Shown here piece by piece: positions 17,428-34,785 of a DNA stretch of 64,000 nucleotides. The notes beneath the pieces are model-generated. The model saw only the letters and a list, made by a program, of their open reading frames with translations. It had not been told where the DNA came from and did not search any database. The DNA is taken from the NCBI RefSeq assembly GCF_036226745.1, contig NZ_CP109013.1, positions 5,642,001 through 5,706,000 on the forward strand, read 5' to 3'. The stretch's first letter is position 1; every line of letters starts with the position of its first letter. Source of the stretch: Streptomyces sp. NBC_00683 (GTDB lineage Bacteria; Actinomycetota; Actinomycetes; Streptomycetales; Streptomycetaceae). The translations under genes and the position numbers were made by a program.

Positions 17428-17832
17428 TCAGCCCTCGGTGTTGATCATCGAGGCGGCGGCGTACGTGAGGTAGTCCCACAACTGCCGCTCGTGCGCGGGG
17501 GACAGCCCGAGCTCGTCGAGCGCCACCCGCATATGGCCGAGCCAGGCGTCGTGAGCCGCCCGGTCCACCCGGAACGGAACGTGCCGCATCCGCAGCCGGG
17601 GGTGCCCCCGCTCGTCGCTGTAGGTGCGCGGACCGCCCCAGTACTGCATGAGGAACAGGGTGAAGCGCTCCTCGGCCGGACCCAGATCCTCCTCCGGGTA
17701 CATCGGCCGCAGCAGCGGGTCGTCCGCGACCCCCTGGTAGAAGCGGTGGACCAGGCGCCGGAAGGTCTCCTCGCCGCCGACCTGCTCGTAGAAGGTCTGC
17801 TCCTGAAGCGTGTCGCGCGGAATCTCTGTCAC
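17428..17832 (-). CDS. glbO: Group II truncated haemoglobin (GlbO type)
   Basis: A 134-residue globin with the group II signature: FYEQVGGEETFRRLVHRFY at the front, the YWGGPRTYSDERGHPRLRMRH block with the proximal His near the end of that motif, and a conserved Trp in the G helix (DAWLGHM). It binds haem and oxygen or NO; GlbO-type proteins are often linked to respiration and redox protection. The start is the GTG at 17832 (VTEIPRDT); an open frame continues upstream but reads into unrelated sequence. It is the last gene of the signalling block, 74 bases after the FHA gene, and may be read through from it. Confidence 0.88.
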   Translation of the reverse strand: MTEIPRDTLQEQTFYEQVGGEETFRRLVHRFYQGVADDPLLRPMYPEEDLGPAEERFTLFLMQYWGGPRTYSDERGHPRLRMRHVPFRVDRAAHDAWLGHMRVALDELGLSPAHERQLWDYLTYAAASMINTEG

Positions 17833-17906
17833 CCGTCCATGGTCGCAGACGCACCGGCCGAGTACCGGAGTCCTAGGACCCCGCTCCTCGGCCGGTGCGT
17901 ACCGGA

Positions 17907-19229
17907 TCAGTCGCGGCGCACCGTGATCGTCGTCCAGGCCCCGACATGCACCTGGTCGCCGTCCTGGAGCGGCACGGGCACATAGGGCTGGATCGGATCC
18001 TCGGCGCCGTTGAGCGTGGTGCCGTTGGTGGAGTTCTGGTCGACGACGGCCCAGTTGCCGTCCGGCTGCTGCACCAGCACGGCGTGCTGGTGCGAGACGC
18101 CCGGGTCCTCCGGCGGCACGGCCAGGTCGATGTCGGGGGACTCGCCGGTGCTGTGCCGCCGACGGCCGATCGTGATCTGGTTGCCCGTGAGCGGAAGGTG
18201 CTGCTCCGGGGAGTACGCGGGCAGGTTGAGCCCGGTCGCCTCGGGGCCGCTGCGCTGCATCATCGCCAGGAAGTACTCGCGGTCCGGCGCGATCACGGCC
18301 GACCAGCTGACCGGCTGCCGGCTCTGGCCCGGAACGGGACCCTGTCCCTGAGCCTGACCTGGGCCCTGGCCGGGGAAGTGCTGCTGCGGGGCCTGAGGCG
18401 TCTGCGGTCCCTGCTGGAAAGCCTGCGGGGGCTGCTGCTGCTGCGAGGGCGGCGGCAGCATCCAGTCGTCCCCGCCGGTCTGCGGAGCCTGCGGCTGCGG
18501 CGGCGCGGACTGCTGCTGGAACGACGGGGGCGGCGGCGGACCCTGGCGCTGCGGGTCGAACGGCGAGGGGTGACCCTGCTGTCCCTGCGGCCCCGGCTGT
18601 CCCTGCGGGTCGAACGGCCCCGGCTGTCCCTGCTGACCCTGCGGGTCGAACGGCGAGGGCTGCCCGGGCTGACCCTGCTGTCCCTGTCGCTCGAAGGGGG
18701 ACGACGACTGCTGCTGGAATGCGGGCGGGGGCGGCGGCCCCTGCTGGAACGACGGGGGAGGCGGCGGGCCCGGCCTGCCTGCCTGCTCCGGCGAGAGCGG
18801 CTCGGCGGGCCGGTTCATCTGCGAGGGCCGCGAGCTCTGGTACTCGAACGGGTCGCGCTGCTGCGGAGGCTGCGGCGGGCCCTGCTGGGCCTGGAAGCCG
18901 GGCGGCAGATTCAGCCCGGGCACCGGGCCCCCGGCGCCACCCTGCGGGGCGAGCGGGGTGTACGACGTCGCCGTGTTCGTGAGGAAGTTCCAGCGGCACT
19001 CCTCACAGAACGGCGCCATCGCCTCACGCGGGGTGCGGCACTGCGGGCAGAGCTCGGCCTGGGCGGTCGGCTCCCCGGAACCCTGCGGGTAGCCGTAACC
19101 GGGCGCGGGCGGCGGGGGAGGCGGCGGGGGGACTGCGCCCGCGGGCGCGCCCGCCCCGGCCATGCGATGTCCGCAGACCTCGCACCAGTCCTCGGAACCC
19201 GACTGGTGTCCGTTCGGGCAGGTCGGCAT
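17907..19229 (-). CDS. FHA-domain protein with two N-terminal zinc ribbons
   Basis: A 440-residue protein in three parts. First, two zinc ribbons: Cys4/Cys16/Cys19 with CEVCGH (residues 1-22) and CPQCRTP...CEECRWN (about 61-80). Second, a long Pro/Gln/Gly-rich linker (about 85-295) built from repeated FDPQGQQGQPG-like units. Third, a C-terminal FHA domain with TIGRRRHSTG, GVSHQHAVL and NSTNGTTLNG, the phosphothreonine-binding loops. It probably docks phosphorylated partners of the neighbouring kinase. Unlike GarA/OdhI, it has no short N-terminal ETTS-type phosphorylation segment, so it is not a simple GarA orthologue. It lies 111 bases after the VWA gene. Confidence 0.85.
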   Translation of the reverse strand: MPTCPNGHQSGSEDWCEVCGHRMAGAGAPAGAVPPPPPPPPAPGYGYPQGSGEPTAQAELCPQCRTPREAMAPFCEECRWNFLTNTATSYTPLAPQGGAGGPVPGLNLPPGFQAQQGPPQPPQQRDPFEYQSSRPSQMNRPAEPLSPEQAGRPGPPPPPSFQQGPPPPPAFQQQSSSPFERQGQQGQPGQPSPFDPQGQQGQPGPFDPQGQPGPQGQQGHPSPFDPQRQGPPPPPSFQQQSAPPQPQAPQTGGDDWMLPPPSQQQQPPQAFQQGPQTPQAPQQHFPGQGPGQAQGQGPVPGQSRQPVSWSAVIAPDREYFLAMMQRSGPEATGLNLPAYSPEQHLPLTGNQITIGRRRHSTGESPDIDLAVPPEDPGVSHQHAVLVQQPDGNWAVVDQNSTNGTTLNGAEDPIQPYVPVPLQDGDQVHVGAWTTITVRRD

Positions 19230-19340
19230 GTCGGCGCTTCCCCCTCTCCTCGTCCGGCCCGGAGGCCGCCATGCTCGTAGGTGCGCCGTCCGGCCGGCCG
19301 GGTGGCCTTCCGCACGGCTGTCTCGCTGTCGTACGTGCTG

Positions 19341-20702
19341 TTATTTCTTGACGCGAACGGTCTTGGTGGAGCGAGTTTCGAGTGTCATCTCGTCCGCTTC
19401 CGCCACCCTCGCTTTCAGTCGCACAGTACCGGTCGCTGCATCGACAACGTCGACCACCTTCGAAAGCAGTTTCGCAGTATCCGCGTTCCCGGAGGCCGAT
19501 GCGAGCTGCACCGCACGGCCGAGTTTCGCCGTCGCGCCGTCGAAGTCTCCCGATTTACGCGCATCCAGCCCCTGTTGGATGACTTGCGCCAGTTCTGCCT
19601 GACCTGTGTAGTGGGCAACCTGCGGGTTGATGGACGTGGACGCGGCCATGTCGTCCGTCCAGACCGCCCGTACGAGTCCCTGGGACAGGGTCTGCGGGGC
19701 CTCGCCGGCCGAGGGGGCGGGAAGGATCAGCGAGACCCGGGCCGCAAGCATCTCCTGACCGATGCCGGCCTCGGGAACCCGTACACACACGTGATAGTCC
19801 CGGGACTCGTCGCCCCAGGAGCCCGTCGGATAGTCCCCGGCGCGGGGTCCCGCCACGGTGCGCCGGTCGGTCAGTTCGGCGACCGTGGGCGCCACCTGCT
19901 TGACGAACACGATCTCGACCCCGACGGGCGTCCAGAGCCGCAGCGCCACGTCCGCGACCTCCTTGCCCATCGCGTTCTCCATCATCTGCGTGAAGTCCGC
20001 GGCGAGGCCCGCCGGATCGGCGACGATGTCCGCCGTGCCGAGCAGCGCGGAGGCGATGGCTGTGACCTCTTTCACTTCCCAGTCGGTGCCCACGCCACGC
20101 GCGTCACAGGTGAAGCGGCCCGCACACGCGTCCAGAGCGGCCCGCAGATCCTCGGGCGACTCGTGCTCGTTACGGCCGTCGGTGAGCAGGATGCCGTGCC
20201 TGATATCCACATCGGCCGCGCCCAGCAGCCGGTCGGCCAGCCGCAGCCACGTACCGATCGCCGTACCGCCGCCCGAGCTCAGCCGCCGCAGGGCGTCCTT
20301 CGCCTGGGCCTTCGTCTGCGTGTCGGCGGTCGCGAGCCGTCCGTTGCCCGGGTACACATCCTTGGCCACATGGGTTCCGGCCACCACCGCGAACTGCGTG
20401 CCGTCACGCAGGGTGTCGATGGCCGCCGCCGTCGCGTCGCGGGCGTTGCGCATCTTGGTCGGCGGGTACTCCATCGAGCCGGAACAGTCGACCATGAGCA
20501 CCGCCGCGGCGTTCGGCGCCTGTCCCGGTGCGTGTGCGGCCGTCGCTGACGCGCCGGTCAGCGGCACACGGCCGGTGGTGCCACCGCCCGTCGAGGTCAC
20601 GGTGACGATCGCGTTGACCTCACGCCCGCCCTCGGGCAGATATTCGTTCTGGTAGACCTCGACGGAGAACTGCGGCACGTTCGACTTGGAGAAGTTGGCC
20701 AT
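19341..20702 (-). CDS. VWA-domain protein with MIDAS motif
   Basis: A 453-residue cytosolic protein. Residues 1-60 form a beta-rich lead, then a von Willebrand A domain begins with the metal-site motif DCSGSM, with the supporting GGGTAIG threonine loop and LLTDGRNEH further on. The C-terminal 130 residues include helices with LDARKSGDFDGATAKLGRAVQLA, resembling a TPR-like or domain-swap region. VWA domains bind divalent metal and a protein ligand. ATG 20702 follows GGAGCCGATCAG; an in-frame start eight codons earlier is less likely. Its position between a PP2C and an FHA gene suggests a scaffold or target in the phosphorylation circuit. Confidence 0.85.
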   Translation of the reverse strand: MANFSKSNVPQFSVEVYQNEYLPEGGREVNAIVTVTSTGGGTTGRVPLTGASATAAHAPGQAPNAAAVLMVDCSGSMEYPPTKMRNARDATAAAIDTLRDGTQFAVVAGTHVAKDVYPGNGRLATADTQTKAQAKDALRRLSSGGGTAIGTWLRLADRLLGAADVDIRHGILLTDGRNEHESPEDLRAALDACAGRFTCDARGVGTDWEVKEVTAIASALLGTADIVADPAGLAADFTQMMENAMGKEVADVALRLWTPVGVEIVFVKQVAPTVAELTDRRTVAGPRAGDYPTGSWGDESRDYHVCVRVPEAGIGQEMLAARVSLILPAPSAGEAPQTLSQGLVRAVWTDDMAASTSINPQVAHYTGQAELAQVIQQGLDARKSGDFDGATAKLGRAVQLASASGNADTAKLLSKVVDVVDAATGTVRLKARVAEADEMTLETRSTKTVRVKK

Positions 20703-20868
20703 CTGATCGGCTCCTTGAGGCTCCACGTATGTCAGATGAAGACAGATATGCGGACAGAGTTCAGGACAGGAGGGGCAAGAGGAAGTGGAAGGGTGAGGAG
20801 AGGGCGGAAGGCGGCTGGCAGTACGGAGTGACAGGTGGACCGGCGGGGACCGGCGGACCGAACGCGGC

Positions 20869-22269
20869 TCAGGCGGTGCTGTAGGCCGATCCTGCCCCTT
20901 GCGTCGGCACGGCGAACGGGAGCAGGGCCACTGTTACGTTGTCGTGGCCCCCGCCGTCGAGCGCATGGCCGACCAGCACCTGGGCGCCGTGCAGCGGCCG
21001 TTCGTACGCCTCGGGCGGCACGGCCGTCGCCATCTCCACCGCCGACTCGGCGTAGTTCCACAGTCCGTCGGTACACACCACCACCAGACCGGGCCGGTCC
21101 GGTTTGAAGGAAGCGGTGTGCGGCTCCAGTTCGTACGCGTCGGCGCCGAGCCAGCCCGTGATGGCGTGGGCGCGCTCGTCGGCGTACGCCTCCGCCTCGT
21201 TCATCAGGCCCGTCGCCACCATCTGCGCGGCCCAGGAGTCGTCCTCCGTGAGCCGGGCGGGCGGATTCGTGCGGTCCTCGGGCACCCAGTAGACACGGCT
21301 GTCACCGACCCACCCGACGACCAGCAGACCGCCCGCCATGATCGCGCCGACCAGCGTGCACGCCGGGGCGTTCTGATGGCGGTGCGGATCGTGCTCCATC
21401 GCTTGACCGGGTTCCTGCGCAAGGGAGTTGACCGCCTCGGCGGCGGCGAGAATCGCCTCGTGCATCGCCTGCTGCGGATGCGTGCCCCGCGGCAGCGACT
21501 CCAGCAGCGTCTCGTTGGCGGCGCTCGCGGCCGCGGCCGAGGCCTCGTCCGGGCGGCTCGCCGACGAGACCCCGTCGCACACGATCGCCACGACGGCCGG
21601 TGACCCGTCAGGGAGCGCGGTGGAGGACACCGCGAACGCGTCCTCGTTGCGGTGGTGGCGCAGGCCGCGGTCGCTGACGGCGGCCACGGAACCGAGCTCC
21701 TGCTCCATGTGGTCGCGCTCGCGGGGCTGGGCGTGCCCGCAGTTCTCGCAGTAGCCGTCGGTGTCCACGTGGCCGGAGCGGCACGCCACACAGACCTTCG
21801 CACCGGCCGGGACACCGGCACCGGAGTGCTCCGCGGTACGGGGGTCGGGTGCCGTCGCCCCCGGAGCGGCCAGCTCGAAGTCGCCCGAGGCGGCCGGGCG
21901 GTCCGCGTCGGGGCGGGCCGTGTCCGGATGCTCCGCGGCAGGGGCGTCCGGTTCGTCGAAGCGGACGGCCGAAGGGGCAGTGGTGGGCAGGGGCTTCCCG
22001 CCCGAGTCCAGGCCCGGAAGATCGGCAGGACGGTGCGTGGGCGCGGGCAGGTCCGAGCTGTCGGCCTCGGAAGCGGGCGGCCATTCCACCGGACCGGCGC
22101 CCGCGCTCTGCGCGGGGACGGTGATGGCGACCGTCGGACGGTCGCCCGGCGGGGCGGGTACGGCCGAGAGGTCGTACCCGCACGCTCCGCAGAACAGGTC
22201 GCCCGACTCCAGCGGTTCCTCACAGCTGGGGCACCCCGGCAAGGAGGCCTGCTGGTGGATCTGTGACAT
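20869..22269 (-). CDS. PP2C-family serine/threonine phosphatase with zinc ribbons
   Basis: A 466-residue protein. A zinc ribbon starts near residue 13 (CPSCEEP...CGACGYDL), followed by a Pro/Asp-rich linker and a second ribbon (CVACRSG...CENCGHA, about 160-180). The PP2C domain then carries all core motifs: RHHRNEDAF, CDGVSS, GDSRVYWV, CTDGLWNY and GGHDNVTVAL, giving the Asp residues for two metal ions. It should dephosphorylate Ser/Thr, most simply counteracting the adjacent PknG-like kinase. ATG 22269 gives MSQIHQ; a GTG six bases upstream (22275) overlaps the kinase stop as GTGA and is also possible. Confidence 0.88.
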   Translation of the reverse strand: MSQIHQQASLPGCPSCEEPLESGDLFCGACGYDLSAVPAPPGDRPTVAITVPAQSAGAGPVEWPPASEADSSDLPAPTHRPADLPGLDSGGKPLPTTAPSAVRFDEPDAPAAEHPDTARPDADRPAASGDFELAAPGATAPDPRTAEHSGAGVPAGAKVCVACRSGHVDTDGYCENCGHAQPRERDHMEQELGSVAAVSDRGLRHHRNEDAFAVSSTALPDGSPAVVAIVCDGVSSASRPDEASAAAASAANETLLESLPRGTHPQQAMHEAILAAAEAVNSLAQEPGQAMEHDPHRHQNAPACTLVGAIMAGGLLVVGWVGDSRVYWVPEDRTNPPARLTEDDSWAAQMVATGLMNEAEAYADERAHAITGWLGADAYELEPHTASFKPDRPGLVVVCTDGLWNYAESAVEMATAVPPEAYERPLHGAQVLVGHALDGGGHDNVTVALLPFAVPTQGAGSAYSTA

Positions 22270-22271
22270 CT

Positions 22272-25166
22272 TCACACCCAGGTCCGGGGGCGGAAACGGT
22301 TGGCCCGCTCCACCAGTTCGATCCTCTCGTCGCCCCGCTGCGCGAGCCGGGCGAGCATCCGGTACGAGCGTTCGAGACCGAACCTGAGGCCTCGCTCGTC
22401 CAGCTCACTGTCCAGCAGCGTCCTCGGTCCCGCGGTCGCGGGGGAGGCCGTGGCCGGTGACTGAGCTGTGGGACTACCGGAGAGTACCCAGTCAAGTGCC
22501 GTCCCCAGCACCTCGGTCGACAACTGCTCGCGCCGGACCGCGTCCAGCCCGTAGCCCTTGAGGGCCGTCACCTGGTCCGCCGCGGCGAGGAGATCGTCGA
22601 TCAGGGGATCCTGCGGGACCCTCTCGCGCAGCCGGGCCCGCACCGCGGCCACCCGCGCCGCCGTGTAGTGGATCGACGACTCCGGTACGGACTCCAGGGT
22701 CCGCACCGCCCCGACCCGGTCACCCGCGGCGATCTGTACCCGGGCAAGACCGAACGCGGCGCTGACGAAGCTCGGATCGGTCGCCCACACCAGGCGGTAG
22801 TACTCCGCGGCGTTGTCCAGCTGGCCCAGCACCTCCGCGCAGATCCCCAGGGCCAGCTTCGGCGCGGGCTCACCGGGGAACGCGTCGTAGACCGCGTCGA
22901 AGGACAAGGCCGCGATCTCGTTGTCGCCGGTCACCAGCGAGGTGACACCGCGGTACCAGACCACCCGCCAGTCGTCCGGATGCTCGGCCTCCAGCGCTCC
23001 CAGTGCCCGGGCGCCGGCGTCGAGTTCGCTCATCTCCAGGCGTGCGCGCAGCTCGCGCAGCCGCGTCTCCAGCGAGGCGGCGGGCACGGTCCCCAGAGCG
23101 GAGATCAGTTCGGCGGGTGCCGACGCCATCAGCCCGGCGAGGAAACCGGCGTTGGGATCGTTCGCGTCGACCCGGGGGACCGGCAGGGCGAGCGAGGTGG
23201 CCCGCGCGTCGAAGACCCCCAGCCGGGGCCCGCCCCGGCCGGTGTACGCCCCCGGGAGCGTGGCGGGATCCGGGACCGCCGCGCGCGGAGCCGGAACGGC
23301 CGCCTGCGGTGGGGCGTACGCGAGCGGGCTTCCCCCGCCGCCCGGCGTGCCGCCCCCGCCGGCCCGGACATGGGTGTCGGGCGCGTACACCGCACCGGCG
23401 CCCGGAGCGCTGTACGGGTAGGCGGCCGGTGGGGGCACAGCCCCTGCGGGCCGGGTGCCGACCGGCAGCGCGCCGGCCACAGCGGTCGCCACCGCACCCT
23501 GTGCGGGGGCCACGGCCGAACCGTTCCGCCGCCGCGCGAAGCGCCCGCCGCCGGCCGGAGCCGACCGGACGCCCAGCCGCGACACCTCGTCCGTCAGCTC
23601 CGCGAACAACGCCGTGTCCGTGACCCGCAGTTCCGTACCGAAGAGCGTCGAGAGCGACGGGCGCGGGCGCCCCGTCTGCAGGGCCACCACCTCCCGGAGC
23701 ACGCCCGTCAGTTGCTCGGCCATCTCCGTGGCCGAGGCGAACCGCCGCGCCGGATCCGGGTCCGTGGCCCGCACGAGCAGCCGGTAGAACGACTCGTACC
23801 GCCGGAAGACCTCGATGTTGTCCGGGTCGGGCAGCGAGTCCACGAAGACGTTCGTGTACCCCTGGAAGTCGAAGGTGAGCACCGCCAGCGTCCGCGCGAC
23901 CGTGTACAGGTCGGAGGCGACGGACGGGCCGACCTCGGCCACCTCCGGCGCCTGGTAGCCGACCGTGCCGTAGATGGCCGACTCGTCGTCGTCCATCCTC
24001 CGCACCGCGCCCATGTCGATCAGCTTGAGCTGGTCCTCGGTCTGGATCGCGTTGTCGACCTTGAAGTCGCAGTACAGGAGGTTGCGGCTGTGCAGATGGC
24101 CCAGCGCCTCCAGCGCCTCGATGCCGTAGGCGCACGCCTGCTCGACCGGCAGCGGATCCCGCTTCCCGGCCGGTGTGCGGCGGTCGTTGGCGATCTCCTT
24201 GAGCGCCTTGCCGCCGACGTACTCCATCACGATGTAGCCGTCGAGCGAACCGGTCCGCTGGTCCAGGTGCTCCACGAAGTTGTAGATGCGGACGATGTTG
24301 GAGTGCTCGATCTCCGCGAGGAAGCGCCGCTCGGAGATGGCCGCGGCCATCGCGTCCTGGTCGCCCGTGTCCAACAGGCCCTTCAGCACCACCCAGCGGT
24401 CGGATACGGCACGGTCCACGGCGAGGTACACCCAGCCCAGCCCGCCGTGCGCCAGGCAGCCCGCGACCTCGTACTGCCCGTGGACGACGTCGCCGCTCTG
24501 CAGCTTCGGCACGAAGGAGTAGGGGTGGCCGCACTTGGTGCAGAATCCCTCGGTCCGGCCCGGCCGTTCCCCGCGGGCCCGGCCCACCGGCGCTCCGCAG
24601 TCGGAACGGGAGCAGAACCGCTTCCGCTCCGGGACCTCGGGGTTCTCCATGACCGCGGTCCGCGGATCGGGCCGCGGCACATCCGGTACGAGTACCAGAC
24701 CGGCACCCAGCCTGCCCCGGCCCGAGACGCCCGTCGACGTGCCCGAGGAGCGCACCGACACCGAACGGGACGCCGAGGCGCCCGACAACGAGCGGGAGAG
24801 CCGCCCGGACACCGAGCGCCGCGAGGTCGACGAGCGGGACGAGGACCGCGAGGACGCGCGCGAACTCGACCGCTGAGAGCTGCTGCTGCTCCCCTTGCCG
24901 CCGCCCGCGATACCCGTGGGCGGCGAGCTCAGCATGCCCGTCGAGGAAACGACCGGCGCGAGGCCGCAGGTGTCGCAGTACAGCTCACCGCCGCCCATGT
25001 CCTCGTAGCTGCCCTCGCACGCGGGGCGCTGGCACCGCGGACTCCCGGGGTCCTGCGCCGGAGGCGACTCCACCGGCGCGAGGCCGCAGGTGTCGCAGTA
25101 CAGCTCACCGCCGCCCATGTCCTCGTAACTGCCCTCGCACGCGGGGCGCCGGCACTGTGTACTCAC
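22272..25166 (-). CDS. pknG: PknG-like serine/threonine protein kinase
   Basis: A 964-residue soluble kinase (mycobacterial PknG is about 750). Two near-identical zinc ribbons (CEGSYEDMGGGELYCDTCG) fill residues 5-70, a Ser/Arg-rich linker runs to about 140, and a third, rubredoxin-like ribbon (CSRSDC...CTKCG) precedes the kinase. The kinase has GGLGWVYLA, catalytic Lys262 in VVLKGLL, Asp367 in the CDFKVDN loop and Asp384 in DMG, replacing DFG as in PknG (DLG). A linker leads to a C-terminal TPR region with the PknG pattern (WRVVWYRG, PGEPAPKLALG). PknG phosphorylates GarA to steer 2-oxoglutarate and glutamate flux. The GTG start overlaps the upstream stop (GTGA). Confidence 0.92.
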   Translation of the reverse strand: MSTQCRRPACEGSYEDMGGGELYCDTCGLAPVESPPAQDPGSPRCQRPACEGSYEDMGGGELYCDTCGLAPVVSSTGMLSSPPTGIAGGGKGSSSSSQRSSSRASSRSSSRSSTSRRSVSGRLSRSLSGASASRSVSVRSSGTSTGVSGRGRLGAGLVLVPDVPRPDPRTAVMENPEVPERKRFCSRSDCGAPVGRARGERPGRTEGFCTKCGHPYSFVPKLQSGDVVHGQYEVAGCLAHGGLGWVYLAVDRAVSDRWVVLKGLLDTGDQDAMAAAISERRFLAEIEHSNIVRIYNFVEHLDQRTGSLDGYIVMEYVGGKALKEIANDRRTPAGKRDPLPVEQACAYGIEALEALGHLHSRNLLYCDFKVDNAIQTEDQLKLIDMGAVRRMDDDESAIYGTVGYQAPEVAEVGPSVASDLYTVARTLAVLTFDFQGYTNVFVDSLPDPDNIEVFRRYESFYRLLVRATDPDPARRFASATEMAEQLTGVLREVVALQTGRPRPSLSTLFGTELRVTDTALFAELTDEVSRLGVRSAPAGGGRFARRRNGSAVAPAQGAVATAVAGALPVGTRPAGAVPPPAAYPYSAPGAGAVYAPDTHVRAGGGGTPGGGGSPLAYAPPQAAVPAPRAAVPDPATLPGAYTGRGGPRLGVFDARATSLALPVPRVDANDPNAGFLAGLMASAPAELISALGTVPAASLETRLRELRARLEMSELDAGARALGALEAEHPDDWRVVWYRGVTSLVTGDNEIAALSFDAVYDAFPGEPAPKLALGICAEVLGQLDNAAEYYRLVWATDPSFVSAAFGLARVQIAAGDRVGAVRTLESVPESSIHYTAARVAAVRARLRERVPQDPLIDDLLAAADQVTALKGYGLDAVRREQLSTEVLGTALDWVLSGSPTAQSPATASPATAGPRTLLDSELDERGLRFGLERSYRMLARLAQRGDERIELVERANRFRPRTWV
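24952..25155 (-). repeat. Direct repeat encoding tandem zinc ribbons of PknG
   Basis: Bases 24952-25035 and 25072-25155 are 84-base copies exactly 120 bases apart with two mismatches (at the TAGCT/TAACT and GCGCT/GCGCC positions). Each encodes one C-terminal-cysteine zinc ribbon at the start of the kinase. The near identity at synonymous positions points to recent duplication or gene conversion. Confidence 0.9.
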
Positions 25167-26506
25167 GATGTCTCCCCCTGTTCGCCCCGGCCCTGTCCGT
25201 CCCGGCGTTGCGGCGTCAGCAGATCCGCCGCCGCCTGCTGATAGCGCAGCACCGTCTGTTCGGCGACGCGCAGATCGCACGGCGCGCTCCACAGGACCCG
25301 GCGCGCCGCGTCGTACCGCTCGATCAGCACCGGGTCCTCCGCCATGCCGTGCCGGGCCACCTTCGCCTTGTACGCGTCGAGCCTGCCCCGCAGTTCCGCA
25401 CGGACCGCGAGCGGCGCCGTGACGGACGTCAGGGACTCCCGTGCGCGCAGCAGTTCGTCCTCGGCCTCCCGCTCCAGCGAGTCGAGCAGCGGCGAGAGGC
25501 GGTTCCACTGGGCGTGCCTGCGGTACTCCGACGCCGCGGCCAGCCGCTCCTGCAACGCGGTCGACGGGCCGCTGACCGCGGGTACCTCCGAGGCGGCGAT
25601 CTTCGCCAGTACCTCGCCGCGCGCCGAACGTGCCTCGGCGAGCGTACGGTCGGCCCGCGACAGCACGTCGCGGAGCTGGACCAGGCGCTGCTCCGCGTCC
25701 TGCCGGACCGCGAGCACCGCCTCGATCTCCCGCCGTACGTCCTCCAGGGCGCGGGCCGCCCGGTCGTAGCGCGTGGTGTCGGGACGCCCGCCGCCGGGCG
25801 CCGCGCTGCCGGGACCCGGCAGCCAGAACGCCAGCGGATCGGAGATCACCTGCACCCGCAGGGTGGTCAGCTCCTCGGTGATCGACTCCAGGTCGTCACC
25901 CGCCGGATGCTCCCCGGGCCGCACACCGACGGAGTGCGCCAGCGAGCGGGTGCGGCGCAGCTCCGCGGCGAGCAGGTCTATCCGGGCGGGCAGTGCCGAC
26001 CAGACGGAGTCCGAGGCGACGACCATGTCCAGCGAGCGTGCGTACAGGTCGTTCATCCGGGCGACGAGCTCCTCCAGCGTGAACCGCTCGGAGAGCCTGG
26101 CAGGGCCGGTCAGCCCCGGCTCGGGGCTCACCGCGGCCGTGTTCGCCACGGTCACACCGTCGCCGCGCAGCAGCTCGGTGAGGGCCACCAGGTCGTCCTT
26201 GCTGGGGTAGCGGCGCCTGGCCCGGACCTCGCGGGCCGCGGAGAGCGCCCCCGCATAGGCGTCGAAGTACCCCCACAACAGGGTGATCGACTGCTCGGCG
26301 GAGGCCCAGCGGTCCTTGGTGACACCGGTCAGATCGGCGCCCTCCAGGAGCCGGCGGCCGGCATGGTCCTGCAGGGCGAGGAGCGAGGTCTCGATCGCCT
26401 CGTGCTCCGCACCGAGCCGGGCCAGCGCACGGTCCGCCTCGTCCCGGTCCATGACCGGGCCGGGGGGCCTCCCCGCGAAGCTGGGGAAGGATCCCGCGAC
26501 GCCCAT
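25163..26506 (-). CDS. Alpha-helical coiled-coil protein of the pknG operon (unrecognised family)
   Basis: A 447-residue protein with no signal peptide or membrane helix. From about residue 18 it is almost entirely charged helix with heptad-like spacing: DRDEADRALARLGAEHEAIE, a central region around LDMVVASDSVWSALPARID, and a long coil from ARALEDVRREIEAVLAVRQD to the C-terminus. I cannot assign a family. It sits between glnH and pknG, overlapping the kinase start by four bases, so it is translated together with the kinase and may link membrane sensor and kinase. ATG 26506 has GAGAGG eight bases upstream. No equivalent lies between glnH and pknG in the mycobacterial operon as I recall it. Confidence 0.75.
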   Translation of the reverse strand: MGVAGSFPSFAGRPPGPVMDRDEADRALARLGAEHEAIETSLLALQDHAGRRLLEGADLTGVTKDRWASAEQSITLLWGYFDAYAGALSAAREVRARRRYPSKDDLVALTELLRGDGVTVANTAAVSPEPGLTGPARLSERFTLEELVARMNDLYARSLDMVVASDSVWSALPARIDLLAAELRRTRSLAHSVGVRPGEHPAGDDLESITEELTTLRVQVISDPLAFWLPGPGSAAPGGGRPDTTRYDRAARALEDVRREIEAVLAVRQDAEQRLVQLRDVLSRADRTLAEARSARGEVLAKIAASEVPAVSGPSTALQERLAAASEYRRHAQWNRLSPLLDSLEREAEDELLRARESLTSVTAPLAVRAELRGRLDAYKAKVARHGMAEDPVLIERYDAARRVLWSAPCDLRVAEQTVLRYQQAAADLLTPQRRDGQGRGEQGETS

Positions 26507-26548
26507 CGATCACCTCTCCGCTCTCGCGCCGGGCATGGCCCGGCAGGT

Positions 26549-27589
26549 TCAGTTGGTCCGGTACTTGGGCGCCGGCGGCGCCGTGATCCCGGGAAGTCCC
26601 GTAGCCAGCCACGTGCGGTACGACCGCATCCAGGGGCTGTCGGCACCGCCCTGGCGATAGTCGTCCAGCACCTTGTTGACCCGGGCCACGAGATCGTCGG
26701 CCCCGAGCTTCGCCGCGACGCCGTAGTACTCGGTGGTGAACGGCTTGTCGCCCTTGAGCTCCACCGCCGGGTCCTGAGCGGCCTGGCCGGCCGCCAGCGC
26801 GTTGTCCGTGACGACCGCGTCCACCTCGCCGAGCTGCAGCCGCACCAGGCAGTCCAGCTGGTTGGGGACGGTCAGCTGGTCCAGGTCCTGCTCGCTGCCG
26901 TCGTGCTCGTCCTTGAAGGTCGCACCGTAGGACTCCTTCTCCAGCGCTTCGTACGCCGTGGAGCCCTCGGCGGTGCAGACCCGCTTGCCGGCGAGCGACG
27001 TGTCGTACCCCGTGATCGTCGACTCCTTGGGGGCCAGGACCTGCTGGCCCGCCTGGAAGTAGGCGGTGGAGAACGAGACCTGCTCCAGGCGCTTGCAGTT
27101 GATCGTCATCGTCCGCACGACGACGTCCACCCTGTCGTTCTCCAGGGCGGCGATGCGCTGGTTGGTGGGGATCGCACGGAAGATCACCGCCTCGGGGTCG
27201 CCGAGGATGTCCTTCGCGATCGCCCGCACCAGATCGATGTCGAAGCCTTCGAGTGTGCCGGTCTCCGTCTCCGGATTGCGGTAACCCCACTGGAAGCTGT
27301 TCTGGTCGACACCGGCGATCAGTTTCCCGCGCTCCTGGATCTTCTTGATGGTCGGGCCGTCCGCGCTCGACGGCGCCAGGCTCGCCTCCGGATCCGTGCA
27401 CGAGTCGGCCTTGGCGGCCACCGCGGACGTCGCGCCCTGCCCCGTACTCTGCCCGTCCGAAGAGCCCCCGCCGTGCGTCAGCGGCAGCAGGGTGAGCGAT
27501 GCCGTCAGGGCACAGGCCACCGCCATGCCCGTCACACCTCCCCAGCCACGCAGCCTGCCGCGGGCGGCCCAGACCTCGGCCCTGGTCAT
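26549..27589 (-). CDS. glnH: Glutamate/aspartate-type solute-binding protein GlnH
   Basis: A 346-residue extracytoplasmic binding protein of the PBPb/SBP_bac_3 family. An N-terminal hydrophobic segment (about residues 20-42, GGVTGMAVACALTASLTLL) acts as signal or anchor; the Cys there lacks a clean lipobox. The binding-domain motifs are IKKIQERGKLIAGVDQN, LEGFDIDLVRAIAKDILGD, NDRVDVVVRTMTIN and a closing KVLDDYRQGG. No permease or ATPase gene is nearby, so this is a sensor rather than an importer, as described for GlnH with GlnX in mycobacteria. ATG 27589 has GAGAGGGG six bases upstream and is preferred over the GTG 27604 that overlaps glnX. Confidence 0.88.
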   Translation of the reverse strand: MTRAEVWAARGRLRGWGGVTGMAVACALTASLTLLPLTHGGGSSDGQSTGQGATSAVAAKADSCTDPEASLAPSSADGPTIKKIQERGKLIAGVDQNSFQWGYRNPETETGTLEGFDIDLVRAIAKDILGDPEAVIFRAIPTNQRIAALENDRVDVVVRTMTINCKRLEQVSFSTAYFQAGQQVLAPKESTITGYDTSLAGKRVCTAEGSTAYEALEKESYGATFKDEHDGSEQDLDQLTVPNQLDCLVRLQLGEVDAVVTDNALAAGQAAQDPAVELKGDKPFTTEYYGVAAKLGADDLVARVNKVLDDYRQGGADSPWMRSYRTWLATGLPGITAPPAPKYRTN

Positions 27590-27600
27590 CGCTGCCCCTC

Positions 27601-28989
27601 TCACCGGTACTCCGAGAGCCTGCGGTTGACCCCGGCGATCGCCGCTACCGCACCCAGTACGGCGAGGACGGCTGCCCCGATCGGCATCCCGCCCAGCGCT
27701 CCGCGCCCGTCCTTCGCCGCCGCGGTGAACTCGCCCTGTTCATGGGCGAGCGCCTGCTGCAGCGCCCGGTCCACCAGTTCGAAGCACTCTCCCGTGGAGC
27801 CCTTCGAACCGATGATCTGCTGCAAGGCGCTGTTGTAGTCGCCCTGGTCGTCCGTCGCGCGGGCCTTCTTGTGGCGGCCCTGCCACTCGTTCACACTGCT
27901 GATGGCCTTCGCCACCGGATCGCTCCCCCGGGAGTCGTCGGCGAGCTTCTCGGCGCTCTTGAGCTGCGATCCGAGGGACTTCATGCCCGTGCTGTAGTCG
28001 GTCTCGTACTTGTCCTTCTGACCATCGGCGGTCAGGACCGCGCCACGGGCGACCAGTGTGAGGTTCTCATTGGCGCGCGCCTTCAGCGAGTTGATCCGCG
28101 CGTTGTTGAGGACGTCGAGCGACTCCTGCCCGTGGGCCATCGCCTCACGCAGTTCGGCCCGCGCCACCGTGTGCCCCACGGCCAGCCACAGCAGCACCAC
28201 CGTGGCCGCCGCGGTCGCAGCGAGCAGCCCGCGGTTGAGGACGCGGTTGGTCCTGCGGTAGTTGCGCCGCTGCATCCACACCAGTGCGGTCAGTGCCACG
28301 ATCCCGGCACCCAGGGAGAAGAACGGCCACTGCCGGGCGTCGGTCGAGTCGGTGCCGAGCCGGCCGGTCTCCGCCGCGTACAACCGCTCGGCCGCCGGGA
28401 GGAGTTCGTTCGTCATCTTCTGGTTCGCGTACCGGAGATAGGCGCCGCCGAGGGGCAGCCCCTGCCGGTTGTTGGCGCGGGCACGCTCGATCAGACCCGT
28501 GTACTCGGGAAGCAGCTTGTTGAGCGTCGTGATCTCGTTCCACGACGATGACGACGCGTCGGTGCTCGCCGCGGCCTTCACCAGGAGCCTGGCGGCTTCC
28601 CTGATGTCCTTCTCGTACTGCTCGTGAACGGCCTTGGGCTCCTGCGCACCTGCCAGGAAGCCGCTCGCCGCCATCGTGTCCGCGTCGGCGAGCGAACGGT
28701 AGATGCTCGCCGCGTCCGCGCTGAGCGGCTGACTGCGGGTCACCACGTCGTCGGCGGCCGAGGCCCGCCCGGAGATCTCCAGGGCCGTGACCGCCCCGAA
28801 CGCCACGACCAGCAGCGCCAGTACGGCACCGATGATCTGCAGCCTGCCCGGCTCGGTCATCGCCGCGGCCCGAAGCCGCTCGGCGGCCACCGCCCCGGCG
28901 CCACGACGCTGCGCGGGTACGGTCGTCGCCGCGGCCTCGCGATCCGGCGCACGCTCCCGCTGCGAGTCCCCGTTCGGCGGGTATGTCAC
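27601..28989 (-). CDS. glnX: Membrane sensor GlnX (partner of GlnH and PknG)
   Basis: A 462-residue membrane protein. Hydrophobic helices are visible at about 50-72 (LQIIGAVLALLVVAFGAV), two near the middle (FFSLGAGIVALTALVWM and LLAATAAATVVLLWLAVG) and one at the C-terminus (GAAVLAVLGAVAAIAGV). Between them are two extracytoplasmic helical domains of about 140 residues that resemble four-helix sensor bundles (DAASIYRSLADADTMAASGFL). This arrangement and its position directly ahead of glnH and pknG fit GlnX, which relays amino-acid binding by GlnH to the kinase. GTG 28989 has a strong GGGGGAGG site; an ATG at about codon 44 would still leave all helices. Confidence 0.85.
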   Translation of the reverse strand: MTYPPNGDSQRERAPDREAAATTVPAQRRGAGAVAAERLRAAAMTEPGRLQIIGAVLALLVVAFGAVTALEISGRASAADDVVTRSQPLSADAASIYRSLADADTMAASGFLAGAQEPKAVHEQYEKDIREAARLLVKAAASTDASSSSWNEITTLNKLLPEYTGLIERARANNRQGLPLGGAYLRYANQKMTNELLPAAERLYAAETGRLGTDSTDARQWPFFSLGAGIVALTALVWMQRRNYRRTNRVLNRGLLAATAAATVVLLWLAVGHTVARAELREAMAHGQESLDVLNNARINSLKARANENLTLVARGAVLTADGQKDKYETDYSTGMKSLGSQLKSAEKLADDSRGSDPVAKAISSVNEWQGRHKKARATDDQGDYNSALQQIIGSKGSTGECFELVDRALQQALAHEQGEFTAAAKDGRGALGGMPIGAAVLAVLGAVAAIAGVNRRLSEYR

Positions 28990-29312: not shown

Positions 29313-30281
29313 TCAGTTGTAGTGCGTACGCAGCCTGCTGTGCACCTCCGGCGCCGCCCCCGTGCGGTCCAGACCCAGCAGGCCGGCCCCCAGCACAGGA
29401 GGTTGCGAGACCACCCGGACCACCGCCTTCGGGGCGCGTTCGGCCAGGAGCCCGGCGATCCGCTCGTCCAGCCGTGTGTGCCGCGCGGCGAGGACACTGC
29501 CGCCCAGGACCACCGGCACCTCCTCGTCCAGCAGTTCCAGCCGGCCCAGCGCGACCGACGCCAGGGCGACGACCTCATCGGCCAGCCGGTCCACCAGGGC
29601 GCTCGCCACCGGATCCCCGGCCGTACTCGTCGCGAACAGCACCGGAGTCAGCTCGTGCCGGCGCTCGTACGGGATCCGCCCCCGGTGCAGTGCCTCGATC
29701 AGCTCGTACACCGAGCCGAGCCCGAAGTGCCCCGGCAGCGTACGGACCAGCTCCGTCGGCCCACCACGGCCGTCCTCGGCCCGCGCCGCGAACCACATGG
29801 CCTCCTCGGCGAGCCCCGAACCGCCGCCCCAGTCACCGGATATCCGGCCGATGGCGGGGAAGCGGGCGGTACGCCCGTCCGGCACCATGCCCACGCAGTT
29901 GATCCCGGCGCCGCAGACGACTGCCACACCGCGCGGCTCGTCGACCCCGGCCCGCAGGATCGCGAAGGTGTCGTTGCGGACCTCCACCGTGCGGCCCCAC
30001 CCACGCTCCAACAGAGCCTGGGTGAGTTCCTCCTCCTCCACCGGGAGGTCGGCGTTGGCCAGGCACGCCGACACGTGCCCGATGCTCCCGACGGGCTCGA
30101 CGGCCGCCGCGAGCGCCTGGCCGAGTACCGAGGCCAGCACATCCACCGCGGCCTCCACACCGACCGTCGGCGGCTGGAAGCCGCCTCCGCGGGCCGTGGA
30201 CAGGACCGAGCCGTCCTCGCCGATCAGTGCCACATCGGTCTTGCTGTTCCCCGCATCGATGGCGACGACCGAAGCGTTCAC
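29313..30281 (-). CDS. csnK: Glucosamine/N-acetylglucosamine kinase of the csn operon (BadF/BadG ATPase family)
   Basis: A 322-residue sugar kinase of the ASKHA fold: phosphate-1 motif IDAGNSKTDVAL at residues 8-19, NDTFAILRAG, VVCGAGINCVG and ISGDWGGGSGLAEEAM, then the adenosine loop VVLGGSV. These match the BadF/BadG/BcrA-type N-acetylglucosamine kinase group. In this operon it would phosphorylate glucosamine released from imported chitosan oligosaccharides. The GTG start at 30281 overlaps the csnH stop as GTGA. The symbol follows the S. coelicolor csnR-K naming as I recall it. Substrate (GlcN versus GlcNAc) is inferred from context. Confidence 0.82.
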   Translation of the reverse strand: MNASVVAIDAGNSKTDVALIGEDGSVLSTARGGGFQPPTVGVEAAVDVLASVLGQALAAAVEPVGSIGHVSACLANADLPVEEEELTQALLERGWGRTVEVRNDTFAILRAGVDEPRGVAVVCGAGINCVGMVPDGRTARFPAIGRISGDWGGGSGLAEEAMWFAARAEDGRGGPTELVRTLPGHFGLGSVYELIEALHRGRIPYERRHELTPVLFATSTAGDPVASALVDRLADEVVALASVALGRLELLDEEVPVVLGGSVLAARHTRLDERIAGLLAERAPKAVVRVVSQPPVLGAGLLGLDRTGAAPEVHSRLRTHYN

Positions 30282-31543
30282 GCCCACGCGAGGTGCTCCC
30301 GGTTGTGCGCGACCAGCCGGTCGGTGAGCGCCTCGGCGTACTCGTACTGGCCGATGAGCGGGTGCGAGAGCAGGGCCTTGAAGACGCGGTCCCGGCCGCC
30401 CCGGAGCGCCGCTTCCAGGGCGAGGTCCTCGTACGCCGTCACGTTCGCGATCAGTCCCGCGTAGAGCGGGTCGAGCGCCGGCACCGCGAGCGGCGTGGCA
30501 CCCGTGCGGTCCACCCGGGCCTGGACCTCGATCACGGCGTCGTCCGGCAGGAACGGGAGCGTCCCGTTGTTGTAGGTGTTGACCACCTGTACCGCGGAGC
30601 CGCCCCCGCCGAGCAGGGCGGCGGCCAGGTCCACGGCCGCCTCCGAGTAGAAGGCGCCGCCGCGCTTGCCGAGCAGCGCCGGTTTCTCGTCCAGCGCCGG
30701 ATCGCCGTACATGGCCAGGAGTTCCTTCTCCATCGCGGCGACCTCGGCCGCCCGCGAGGGCTTCGTACCGAGCTCCCGTACGACCTCGTCGTGCGCGTAG
30801 AAGTACCGCAGGTAGTACGAGGGGACGACGCCGAGCCGGTCGATGATCTGGCGCGGCATGTGCAGATCGTCGGCGATCGTGTCGCCGTGCTCGGCGAGCA
30901 GCTTCGGCAGGACGTTCTCGCCGTCCGGACCGCCGAGCCGCACCCCGAGCTCCCACGACAGGTGGTTGAGCCCGACATGGTCCAGGTGCACCTCGGCCGG
31001 GGTGACGTCGAGCAGCCGCGCGAACTTCCGCTGGAAGCCGATCGCCACGTTGCACAGGCCGACGGCCTTGTGCCCGGCCTGCAGGAGCGCCCTGGTCACG
31101 ATGCCGACGGGGTTGGTGAAGTCGATGATCCAGGCGTCGGGATTGGTGCGCCGGACCCGCTCGGCGATGTCGAGGACGACCGGCACCGTACGAAGGGCCT
31201 TGGCGAGGCCGCCGGCCCCGGTGGTCTCCTGACCGACGCAGCCGCACTCCAGCGGCCACGTCTCGTCCTGGCCGCGGGCGGCCTGCCCGCCGACGCGCAG
31301 CTGGAGCAGGACCGCGTCGGCGCCGTCCACCCCGGCGTCCAGGTCGGACGTGGTGGTGATCTTCCCTGCGTGGGCCTGCTTGGCGAAGATCCGTCGGGCG
31401 AGACCGCCGACGAGCTCCAGCCGGTCGGCCGCCGGGTCGATGAGCACCAGCTCCTCGACCGGCAGGGTGTCCCGCAACCGTGCGAATCCGTCGATCAGTT
31501 CAGGTGTGTAGGTGGACCCGCCACCCACTACTGCGAGCTTCAT
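30278..31543 (-). CDS. csnH: Family 4 glycoside hydrolase (6-phospho-beta-glucosidase type)
   Basis: A 421-residue cytosolic enzyme. The N-terminal Rossmann motif VVGGGSTYTPELIDG binds NAD. GH4 metal-site motifs are present as CNVAIGFQ and DHVGLNHLSW. Family 4 enzymes cleave by an NAD- and Mn-dependent redox-elimination mechanism, usually on 6-phosphorylated disaccharides. Because the operon imports through an ABC system, the substrate is likely an unphosphorylated or kinase-modified glucosamine oligosaccharide, so the standard name may mislead. ATG 31543 is three bases before the upstream stop-codon neighbourhood; a TTG one codon earlier is also possible. Confidence 0.85.
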   Translation of the reverse strand: MKLAVVGGGSTYTPELIDGFARLRDTLPVEELVLIDPAADRLELVGGLARRIFAKQAHAGKITTTSDLDAGVDGADAVLLQLRVGGQAARGQDETWPLECGCVGQETTGAGGLAKALRTVPVVLDIAERVRRTNPDAWIIDFTNPVGIVTRALLQAGHKAVGLCNVAIGFQRKFARLLDVTPAEVHLDHVGLNHLSWELGVRLGGPDGENVLPKLLAEHGDTIADDLHMPRQIIDRLGVVPSYYLRYFYAHDEVVRELGTKPSRAAEVAAMEKELLAMYGDPALDEKPALLGKRGGAFYSEAAVDLAAALLGGGGSAVQVVNTYNNGTLPFLPDDAVIEVQARVDRTGATPLAVPALDPLYAGLIANVTAYEDLALEAALRGGRDRVFKALLSHPLIGQYEYAEALTDRLVAHNREHLAWA

Positions 31544-31546
31544 CAA

Positions 31547-32446
31547 TCAGCCCTTTACTCCGGTCAGTGTGACGCCCTCGACAAATGCCTTCTGGGCGAA
31601 GAAGAAGACGGCGATCACGGGGGCCATGACCAGAACGGTCGCGGCCATGGTCAGGTTCCAGTCGGTGTGGTGTGCGCCCTTGAAGGATTCCAGGCCGTAA
31701 CTGAGCGTCCAGGCGGCCGGGTTCTCGGAGGCGTAGATCTGCGGGCCGAAGTAGTCGTTCCAGGCGGCGAAGAACTGGAACAGGGCGATCGCCGCGATGC
31801 CGGGCTTCGCCATCGGCAGGACGACCCTGATCAGGGTACGGAATTCACCGCACCCGTCGACCTTCGCCGCGTCCAGGTACTCGTCCGGGATGGTGAGGAG
31901 GAACTGCCGCAGCAGGAAGATGCTGAACGCGTCGCCGAAGGCCATCGGAATGATCAGCGGCCAGAGCGTGCCGGACAGGTCCAGCTCCTTCGCCCAGAAC
32001 AGGTACATCGGGATGATGACGACCTGCGGTGGCAGCATCATCATCGAGATGACGAGCATCAGCGAGAGCTTGCGGCCCCGGAAGCGGAACTTGGCCAGCG
32101 CGTACGCGACGGGCACCGACGACAGGACGGTCAGGACGGTGCCGACCCCCGCGTACAGCAGGGTGTTGCGCCACCAGGTGAGGAAGCCGGGGGTGTCGAG
32201 GACCCGCCGGTAGTTGTCCCACTCCCAGGTGTCGGGGGTGAGGTCGCGGGTCAGCGCCTGCTGGTCGCTCATCAGTGACGTCAGGACGACGAACACGAAC
32301 GGGAGCACGAAGAACAGCGCGGCCGCGATGCCCAGCGAGTGGACGGCGATCCAGTGCAGCAGTGCCTTGCGGCGGGCTGTGCGCAGGGCCGGCGTGGAGG
32401 TGTCCGTGGCCGGCACCGGGCGGGGCTTGTCGAGGAGTTGGGTCAT
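31547..32446 (-). CDS. csnG: Carbohydrate ABC permease (MalG type)
   Basis: A 299-residue CUT1-type permease with six helices, the first at about 33-57 (SLGIAAALFFVLPFVFVVL). The EAA loop reads EYLDAAKVDGCGEFRTLIRVVLPMAKPG, which contacts the ATPase. It ends with the TLTGVKG-type tail common in MalG homologues. The ATPase is not in the operon; Streptomyces sugar importers usually share MsiK, encoded elsewhere. It starts three bases after the csnF stop. Confidence 0.88.
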   Translation of the reverse strand: MTQLLDKPRPVPATDTSTPALRTARRKALLHWIAVHSLGIAAALFFVLPFVFVVLTSLMSDQQALTRDLTPDTWEWDNYRRVLDTPGFLTWWRNTLLYAGVGTVLTVLSSVPVAYALAKFRFRGRKLSLMLVISMMMLPPQVVIIPMYLFWAKELDLSGTLWPLIIPMAFGDAFSIFLLRQFLLTIPDEYLDAAKVDGCGEFRTLIRVVLPMAKPGIAAIALFQFFAAWNDYFGPQIYASENPAAWTLSYGLESFKGAHHTDWNLTMAATVLVMAPVIAVFFFAQKAFVEGVTLTGVKG

Positions 32447-32449
32447 GGC

Positions 32450-33391
32450 TCAGTCACCGGCCTGGATCAGGTTGTTGCGGCCCCGCATCAGCAGCGCGGT
32501 GAAGGCCATGGCCAGGGCGAACAGGACGAGGGCGACGACACAGGCGGAGCCGTAGTCGAAGCGCTGGAAGCCGAGGTTGTAGACGAGCTGGGGAAGCGTC
32601 AGGGTCGACTTGTCCGGGTAGCCCGGTTCGAACTGCTGCCCGGAGCCGCCGATCACGCCCGAGGCGACCTTCCCCGCCACCAGCGGCTGGGTGTAGTACT
32701 GCATCGCCTGGATCACCCCGGTCACCACGGCGAACAGCACGATCGGCGAGATGTTCGGCAGCGTGACGAAGCGGAACCTCTGCCATCCGGACGCGCCGTC
32801 CAGCTCGGCCGCCTCGTACTGCTCCTTCGGTACGTCGAGCAGAGCGGCCATGAAGATCACCATCAGGTCGCCGATGCCCCACACCGCGAGCATGGTGAGC
32901 GCCGGCTTCGAGAAGGAGGCGTCGTTGAACCAGCCCGGTGTCGGCAGCCCCAGGTCGCCGAGGATCGAATTGACGGGCCCCGTACCCGGGTTGAGCAGGA
33001 AGACGAACGCCAGTGTCGCGGCGACCGGCGGTGCCAGGTAGGGCAGGTAGAAGAAGGTGCGGAAGAGCCCCGTCCCCGTCCTGATCTTCGTGATCAGCAT
33101 GCCGATGCCGAGGCCGAACACCACCCGGCAGGTGACCATGACGAGCACCAGCCAGAGCGTGTTGCGCAGGGACGGCCAGAACATCGGGTAGTCGCTGAAG
33201 ACGTACGTCCAGTTCGCCGCCCCGTTGAAGGACGGCACCCCGAAGCCGTCGTACTTCATGAAGGAGAAGTACACGGTCGAGACCATCGGGTACGCGAAGA
33301 AGACGGTGAACCCGATCAGCCACGGCGACATGAAGGCTGCCGTCCGCAGCGCCGACCGGCGGTGCTTGGAGCGGAGTGTGTGCGTGGTCAT
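32450..33391 (-). CDS. csnF: Carbohydrate ABC permease (MalF type)
   Basis: A 313-residue CUT1-type permease with six helices (first about 20-42, MSPWLIGFTVFFAYPMVST). The EAA loop is EQYEAAELDGASGWQRFRFVTLPNISP. It forms the heterodimeric membrane channel with csnG, fed by the binding protein csnE. Its ATG lies six bases downstream of the csnE stop. Confidence 0.88.
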   Translation of the reverse strand: MTTHTLRSKHRRSALRTAAFMSPWLIGFTVFFAYPMVSTVYFSFMKYDGFGVPSFNGAANWTYVFSDYPMFWPSLRNTLWLVLVMVTCRVVFGLGIGMLITKIRTGTGLFRTFFYLPYLAPPVAATLAFVFLLNPGTGPVNSILGDLGLPTPGWFNDASFSKPALTMLAVWGIGDLMVIFMAALLDVPKEQYEAAELDGASGWQRFRFVTLPNISPIVLFAVVTGVIQAMQYYTQPLVAGKVASGVIGGSGQQFEPGYPDKSTLTLPQLVYNLGFQRFDYGSACVVALVLFALAMAFTALLMRGRNNLIQAGD

Positions 33392-33397
33392 CGGGAT

Positions 33398-34732: not shown

Positions 34733-34785
34733 GGCAAAGCTCCCAGGGACAGGGGGAAGAGGAGGAGGCAGGAGTGGGAAAGGGT

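Follow-up and report, generated by a model that had tools for sequence, protein, structure and literature searches.

A conserved seven-gene unit around pknG in Streptomyces joins the GlnX-GlnH pair to a kinase, phosphatase, VWA and FHA set

We analysed a 64,000-nucleotide stretch of Streptomyces sp. NBC_00683 (contig NZ_CP109013.1, positions 5,642,001 to 5,706,000; hereafter the window), whose genome is a single contig of 8.52 Mb, and identify in it a conserved seven-gene unit that runs from glnX through a gene for an FHA protein. The unit encodes the GlnX-GlnH pair, a helical or coiled-coil protein (CC), the kinase PknG, a PP2C phosphatase, a VWA protein and the FHA protein, all on the minus strand (Table 1). 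We propose, with a probability of roughly 0.6, that these genes form a phospho-switch in which a kinase/PP2C/VWA triad resembling that of TerY-P systems is combined with a reader and an exchangeable sensor, and that the three-gene operon of mycobacteria is a reduced derivative of it. This proposal draws on gene content, gene order, residue conservation and the non-monophyly of three-gene operons, from which we infer the biochemical steps, the directions of interaction and a preference for reduction over gain.

The seven-gene unit and its three-gene relatives

Genes for PP2C, VWA and FHA proteins lie on the same strand as pknG in 77 of 126 well-scoring PknG loci. These loci come from a survey of 197 Actinomycetes genomes, 55 of which score above the PknG_TPR cut-off (one weak match, G292, excluded), and of named sequences. 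It comprised 141 loci: the window, 60 fetched regions (59 of the 70 above-cut-off places other than the window's own, plus one from another search) and 80 named loci, the best 80 of 580. Neighbouring genes were detected with profiles built in this analysis and run against open frames of at least 90 codons. Fifteen loci were dropped for weak PknG scores, namely a decayed Streptomyces locus (L070), the Streptomyces paralogues L075-L080, seven paralogues of family f69 (L106-L112) and L118, where PP2C, VWA and FHA genes are nevertheless present. Streptomyces (f1) and Mycobacteriaceae in the wide sense (f3) were assigned by PknG placement among named PknGs.

The window's gene order is kept in 58 of the 77 module loci, which argues that the arrangement is more than chance. 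Eleven others have the co-directional order CC-PknG-PP2C-VWA-FHA-GlnX-GlnH, and eight have other orders. None of CC, PP2C, VWA and FHA is present at 32 loci, of which 27 have glnX and glnH, two glnX only and three neither. The module is partial at the remaining 17, ten of them no more than a few kb from where a contig ends; the partial loci away from contig ends are L093, L100, L207, L210, L242, L253 and L265. A first-pass annotation of the window had read the kinase, phosphatase, FHA reader and VWA genes as one set, to be refuted by lack of conservation beside pknG in other Streptomyces or by independent transcription and function. The neighbourhood half of that test is passed: all four adjoin one another in 15 of 16 primary Streptomyces loci, the window included, and in many other families. 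The sixteenth (L070, genome G334) is a module decaying: pknG, glnX, glnH and the VWA gene are fragmented, and CC, PP2C and FHA are still open.

Named module loci belong to Streptomycetaceae, Micromonosporaceae, Cellulomonadaceae, Nocardioidaceae, Propionibacteriaceae, Thermomonosporaceae, Nocardiopsidaceae, Streptosporangiaceae, Nocardiaceae and Pseudonocardiaceae, with one bin called Mycobacterium and the cyanobacterium Tolypothrix. The Tolypothrix locus (L234), the one cyanobacterial neighbourhood read, has CC, PknG, PP2C, VWA, FHA and GlnX together. Its VWA protein has relatives of 76-92% identity in Calothrix, Cylindrospermum, Nostoc, Stigonema and other cyanobacteria among the 120 matches listed, and is therefore not a stray. 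In a bin called Granulicella (Acidobacteriota; L254) the contig breaks off after CC, pknG, PP2C and VWA; this is either a real spread or contamination.

The association also holds across whole genomes. VWA_3_C and PknG occur together in 36 of the 197 genomes, PknG alone in 19, VWA_3_C alone in one and neither in 141 (Fisher p 2.6e-24, a value that treats genomes as independent, which they are not, and leaves kinship uncorrected). This count excludes three PknG-negative genomes with matches of 23-26 bits (G283, G313 and G333); VWA_3_C thus occurs in 1 of 142 PknG-free genomes, or 4 of 142 with those three. Most VWA_3_C matches (34/43) lie no more than 5 kb from a PknG. A profile search of whole genomes found VWA_3_C in none of the 14 PknG-bearing f3 genomes, so the VWA gene is absent there rather than moved.

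In two PknG trees, full-module loci from two Nocardia and the Mycobacterium bin form the sister group of the three-gene loci found in Mycobacteriaceae and Rhodococcus; the three-gene loci of Amycolatopsis and its relatives lie elsewhere. Constraining the three-gene loci to a single clade costs 41.9 log units (p-AU 0.00033). The three-gene glnX-glnH-pknG operon occupies at least two separate PknG branches, not one clade, and for that reason looks like repeated reduction. Loss is favoured because gain would require several arrivals of one cassette at a single site, and we conclude that the mycobacterial operon is probably a reduced derivative of the larger module. Two Nocardia loci with pknG and glnX only group as sisters of Nocardia seriolae, where CC, PP2C, VWA and FHA are present. 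The Mycobacterium bin (L247, from a metagenome) carries the full module and groups with the two Nocardia; it is either a deep branch or mis-binned.

Table 1. Genes of the window's pknG locus, in order of transcription
Gene product	Coordinates	Strand	Evidence and remarks
GlnX-family membrane signal transducer	27601..28989	-	NF058618, 482 bits (cut-off 250)
GlnH, family-3 solute-binding protein	26549..27604	-	SBP_bac_3, 5.9e-22; PDB 6h1u, 4.9e-47
CC, helical/coiled-coil protein of no named family	25163..26506	-	Retained beside pknG in relatives
PknG: two N-terminal Zn-ribbon-like units, Ser/Arg linker, rubredoxin-like domain, kinase, TPR	22272..25166	-	PF16918 (PknG_TPR), 284 bits (cut-off 27), 1.2e-84; PF16919 (PknG_rubred), 111 bits (cut-off 28.5), 2.4e-32; PF00069 (Pkinase), 86 bits (cut-off 31.7), 3.6e-24; PDB 2pzi, 4.5e-162
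PP2C phosphatase with N-terminal Zn-ribbon pairs	20869..22275	-	PP2C_2, 5e-14; Zn_Ribbon_1, 26.2 bits (cut-off 25)
VWA protein with complete MIDAS motif and VWA_3_C domain	19341..20702	-	VWA_3_C, 1.4e-22; open frame extends to 20726
FHA protein: two N-terminal Zn-ribbon pairs, Pro/Gln linker, C-terminal FHA	17907..19229	-	FHA, 1.3e-15
Truncated haemoglobin	17428..17832	-	Bac_globin, 6.1e-35; neighbour only, judged outside the unit

All eight co-directional genes described by the first-pass annotation are present in the window with family evidence, except that CC matched no Pfam or NCBIfam family at E 0.001; a sequence search of PDB gave it weak matches, mainly coiled coils or helical bundles. 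The start of GlnX is ambiguous (29082, 28989 or 28860), and its score on the equivalog NF041460 (kinase-G-activating GlnX) falls short of the cut-off (185 vs 780). Overlapping starts and stops had been taken to tie CC and the kinase most tightly. The window does have a 4-base overlap at that junction, as it has at GlnX/GlnH and PknG/PP2C; across Streptomyces the genes are close and do not always overlap. With ten loci excluded from these statistics, the Streptomyces median is -4 at CC/PknG (-4 overlap in 5 of 23), a gap of 14 at GlnX/GlnH (10/27) and a gap of 7 at PknG/PP2C (1/23). GlnH and CC are separated by 42 bases, and the later gaps, previously given as 74-166 bases, measure 166 before VWA, 111 before FHA and 74 before the globin gene.

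A proposed phospho-switch

We propose that GlnH, outside the membrane, would bind a solute, an amino acid and probably an acidic one, and that GlnX would transmit the signal across the membrane. With its TPR domain, and possibly CC, holding it in place, PknG would then phosphorylate targets on Ser/Thr. The parts given to GlnH, GlnX and the TPR domain follow models for mycobacteria and Corynebacterium (PMC6069109, PMC9769921 and PMC8546545). From family knowledge and co-conservation, the co-encoded PP2C may take the phosphate off, the FHA protein may read phosphothreonine, and the VWA protein may act as a metal-dependent scaffold that gathers partners through its MIDAS site, possibly aided by the Zn ribbons common to PknG, PP2C and FHA. 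A bridging role for CC is a guess from its position and from one fusion at L260, where a second Ser/Thr kinase domain joined to a CC domain (L260:7689-9956) stands directly before pknG. An apparent CC-PknG fusion at L060 is probably a frameshift and was not counted. GarA, encoded elsewhere, would likely be a second target, giving the switch two outputs, central metabolism and another.

The residues on which these activities would depend are conserved. The catalytic Lys, Asp, Asn and Asp of PknG are present at 126 of 126 loci, the VWA MIDAS residues in 81 of 82 aligned rows (the remaining row is a gap), the metal-site Asp residues of PP2C in 87-88 of 89, and the FHA binding residues in 79 of 81 (Arg) and 81 of 81 (Ser and Asn). 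A simple pattern finds Zn-ribbon pairs at the N-terminus of FHA at 77 of 77 module loci, of PP2C at 66 and of PknG at 68; it finds the PknG ribbon at 2 of 32 module-free loci, both of them glnX-only Nocardia. In the window, the PknG ribbon is doubled by a 120-base in-frame tandem duplication, with two copies of 101 bases (24952-25052 and 25072-25172) that are 92% identical; L073, the closest relative read, carries a single unit. We considered a Zn ribbon in GarA as a further mark of the module. Among genes that the pattern could find, it is present at 13 of 13 non-mycobacterial PknG-positive loci (15 more were not found by the pattern), at 0 of 14 Mycobacteriaceae-type loci and at 11 of 12 PknG-negative loci (5 not found), and we rejected it as a lineage trait. 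The Ser/Arg linker of PknG (window 24650-25166) is otherwise variable and contains the string SRRSVSGRLSR at 24 of 26 Streptomyces module loci and at no non-Streptomyces locus among the 126.

The FHA protein of the operon is not GarA or its replacement. We rejected that identity because its OdhI-profile score, 23.4 bits, is the lowest of nine FHA genes in the genome, whereas a candidate ortholog at G000:C1:7255435-7255767 reaches 190.6 bits (cut-off 200) and the next gene 52. The candidate carries an ETTS motif and a Zn ribbon, lies 1.6 Mb from the operon and, judged on these features, is likely the GarA ortholog. With GarA encoded elsewhere and scoring far higher, the operon FHA protein would be a second, separate reader. 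GarA-like genes occur in 188 of the 197 genomes, most of them without PknG.

The first-pass annotation had called the circuit amino-acid-responsive, which is uncertain here although the sensor pair is conserved. The ligand contacts of Mycobacterium tuberculosis GlnH are R147, K161, T162, S164, R169, W232 and D250 (PMC6069109); the window's GlnH, aligned to 6h1u, has R, R, T, T, R, Q and D. It thus keeps Arg147, and the residues assigned by that source to the amino-acid backbone are kept or conservatively changed. Position 232 is Trp at 27 of 27 module-free loci with GlnH, Gln at 28 of 29 Streptomyces loci (His at L233) and mixed elsewhere, and on these residues the Asp/Glu specificity of Streptomyces GlnH is uncertain. 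A lipobox was not found in the window nor at 28 of 29 Streptomyces loci (L233 is the exception) by a simple pattern that also misses 7 of 27 module-free loci; GlnH is perhaps anchored through a helix at its N-terminus instead of being lipidated. In some relatives GlnX or PknG is accompanied by a different binding protein. A family-1 protein (SBP_bac_1) comes after GlnX at L109 and L260, and at the Streptomyces PknG-like paralogue loci L075-L080 relatives of it lie 2.7-4.1 kb away on the same strand, which suggests that sensors are exchangeable.

Two further observations concern these loci. The paralogues at L078-L080 have their own VWA neighbour besides the family-1-type binding protein and are a possible second version of the system with another ligand. 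Beside the PknG-like locus L109, a single protein (L109:3245-6091) contains TIR, kinase and NMT1_3 solute-binding domains.

Several points weigh against the phospho-switch. A promoter and terminator scan of the locus returned no promoter-like site and no minus-strand terminator and performed no better than on shuffled sequence, and the 166- and 111-base gaps make separate promoters for VWA and FHA possible. The Fisher value carries the kinship noted above, and unrooted tree counts do not tell gain from loss. The PknG ribbon is not matched by the pattern at nine module loci, and the role given to Zn ribbons is weakened because the GarA ribbon also occurs in PknG-free genomes, making ribbons partly a lineage trait. 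The window's GlnH has Gln in place of the contact Trp232. Finally, phosphothreonine docking, known for GarA/OdhI (PMC8546545), is not obvious here, since in Streptomyces this linker of PknG is rich in Ser and Arg and contains few Thr.

Alternative readings and related systems

The published GlnH-GlnX-PknG-GarA/OdhI cascade of mycobacteria and Corynebacterium (PMC6069109, PMC9769921 and PMC8546545) shares its sensor, transducer and kinase families with the window, whose genome also has the GarA ortholog with its ETTS motif. Relative to the mycobacterial operon, the window adds CC, PP2C, VWA and a second FHA protein, its PknG has N-terminal Zn-ribbon pairs, and its GlnH has Gln for Trp and no lipobox pattern. 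The locus could be read as two adjacent independent units, the canonical pathway and a PP2C-VWA-FHA set that serves other kinases and is kept nearby by chromosomal habit. The longer gaps begin at VWA, GarA is present in the genome, and the pathway as published needs GlnX, GlnH, PknG and GarA/OdhI only. We nevertheless consider this reading unlikely: VWA_3_C is rare without PknG, PP2C overlaps pknG by 4 bases in the window, the PknG-like paralogues at L078-L080 also have VWA neighbours, and at the 11 loci where glnX-glnH stand downstream CC-pknG-PP2C-VWA-FHA remains whole.

The triad itself resembles TerY-P, which consists of a VWA protein, PP2C and a kinase with a C-terminal Zn ribbon and is tied to tellurite resistance; some extended TerY-P systems include SpoVK-type AAA+ genes (PMC11090510). 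A similar set of kinase, Zn ribbon, PP2C and VWA is noted in PMC7159879. Here too kinase, PP2C and a complete-MIDAS VWA protein are co-encoded, with Zn ribbons and, in one branch, TelA and AAA+ neighbours. Set against TerY-P, the kinase here has its ribbon at the N-terminus and TPR at the C-terminus, and the unit further includes an FHA reader and a sensor in the periplasm. Fifteen loci with strong matches and one with a weak match (L258) carry an upstream, co-directional TelA relative. Between TelA and glnX, an AAA+ relative is present at 14 of the 15 strong loci and at L258 (Pfam check on L240), and L203 has only a fragment. All 16 TelA loci fall within one 17-row branch of the PknG tree. 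In family f77, TelA lies about 8 kb from pknG in 5 of 5 PknG-bearing genomes, and the nine PknG-free f77 genomes show none. Other families also have TelA genes that lie away from PknG.

These neighbours raise the possibility of a stress module of TerY-P or Ter type whose main output is not glutamate metabolism, with TelA/AAA+ as effector arm in one branch and GlnX-GlnH as one of several pluggable sensors. The triad's make-up, the upstream TelA and AAA+ genes, the f77 pattern and the family-1 binding proteins beside GlnX at L109 and L260 and near the PknG-like genes of L075-L080 would all fit. As an account of the window it is improbable, because a profile search found no TelA in the window's own genome, the TelA link is confined to one PknG branch and the ribbons lie at the opposite end from those of TerY-P kinases. 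The VWA protein also matched none of the PADLOC families, a search in which the presence of a TerY model in the library was not checked and no direct TerY comparison was made. An ordinary conserved neighbourhood with no joint function is hardly credible: Streptomyces core gene order is conserved in general, but the same order recurs over many families, CC-PknG-PP2C-VWA-FHA-GlnX stand together in Tolypothrix, and the adjoining globin gene does not stay attached.

For the phospho-switch, the nearest worked example of the logic is the control of type VI secretion by PpkA, PppA and Fha1. In that threonine phosphorylation pathway (PpkA, PppA, Fha1 and TagR), a kinase, VWA domain, PP2C and FHA protein act together (PMC3224232). 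In PpkA, a membrane kinase, the VWA forms an extracellular domain; in the window it stands as a protein of its own with no signal peptide evident by eye, and the sensor is GlnX-GlnH. The VWA protein also has a near full-length homologue in PDB 4fx5 (1.9e-174), whose molecule name, 'von Willebrand factor type A', gives no function.

A literature search that took in few subscription papers found no publication on the larger unit and none treating both PknG signalling and TerY-P/TelA systems. The PknG literature found deals mainly with mycobacteria and corynebacteria, whose operon comprises three genes and whose phosphatase gene lies at another locus. As of 2022, contacts of GlnX with GlnH and with PknG were still to be demonstrated in C. 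glutamicum (PMC9769921). If the larger operon is older, CC, PP2C, VWA and FHA would be candidate missing partners, Streptomyces would offer tractable hosts for finding how an outside solute switches a Ser/Thr kinase, and PknG metabolic signalling would be joined with TerY-P/TelA systems. More tentatively, the ancestral PknG system may have been, rather than a dedicated amino-acid/GarA pathway, a modular, TerY-P-like phospho-switch (CC, kinase, PP2C, MIDAS VWA and FHA) whose periplasmic sensors could be exchanged and to which one branch joined TelA/AAA+ as an effector arm. The mycobacterial operon would then be a remnant after repeated loss of eraser, scaffold and reader, with GarA becoming the main known output.

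Genes flanking the unit

The truncated haemoglobin, which the first-pass annotation included as an eighth member, was rejected from the unit because an opposite-strand gene of about 333 codons stands between FHA and globin at 21 of 26 loci with both genes. The intervening gene is missing in the window and was not found at L208, L212, L233 and L235; the closeness of the globin gene in the window is unusual among relatives. Where read (L073:4218-5219 and L061:14942-15943), the intervening gene is methyltransferase-like by eye, without a family scan. On the other side, upstream of glnX and on the same strand, window 29313-35344 encodes a family-1 binding protein, two permeases, a family-4 glycosidase and a BadF/NagK-type kinase, likely a sugar-uptake operon.

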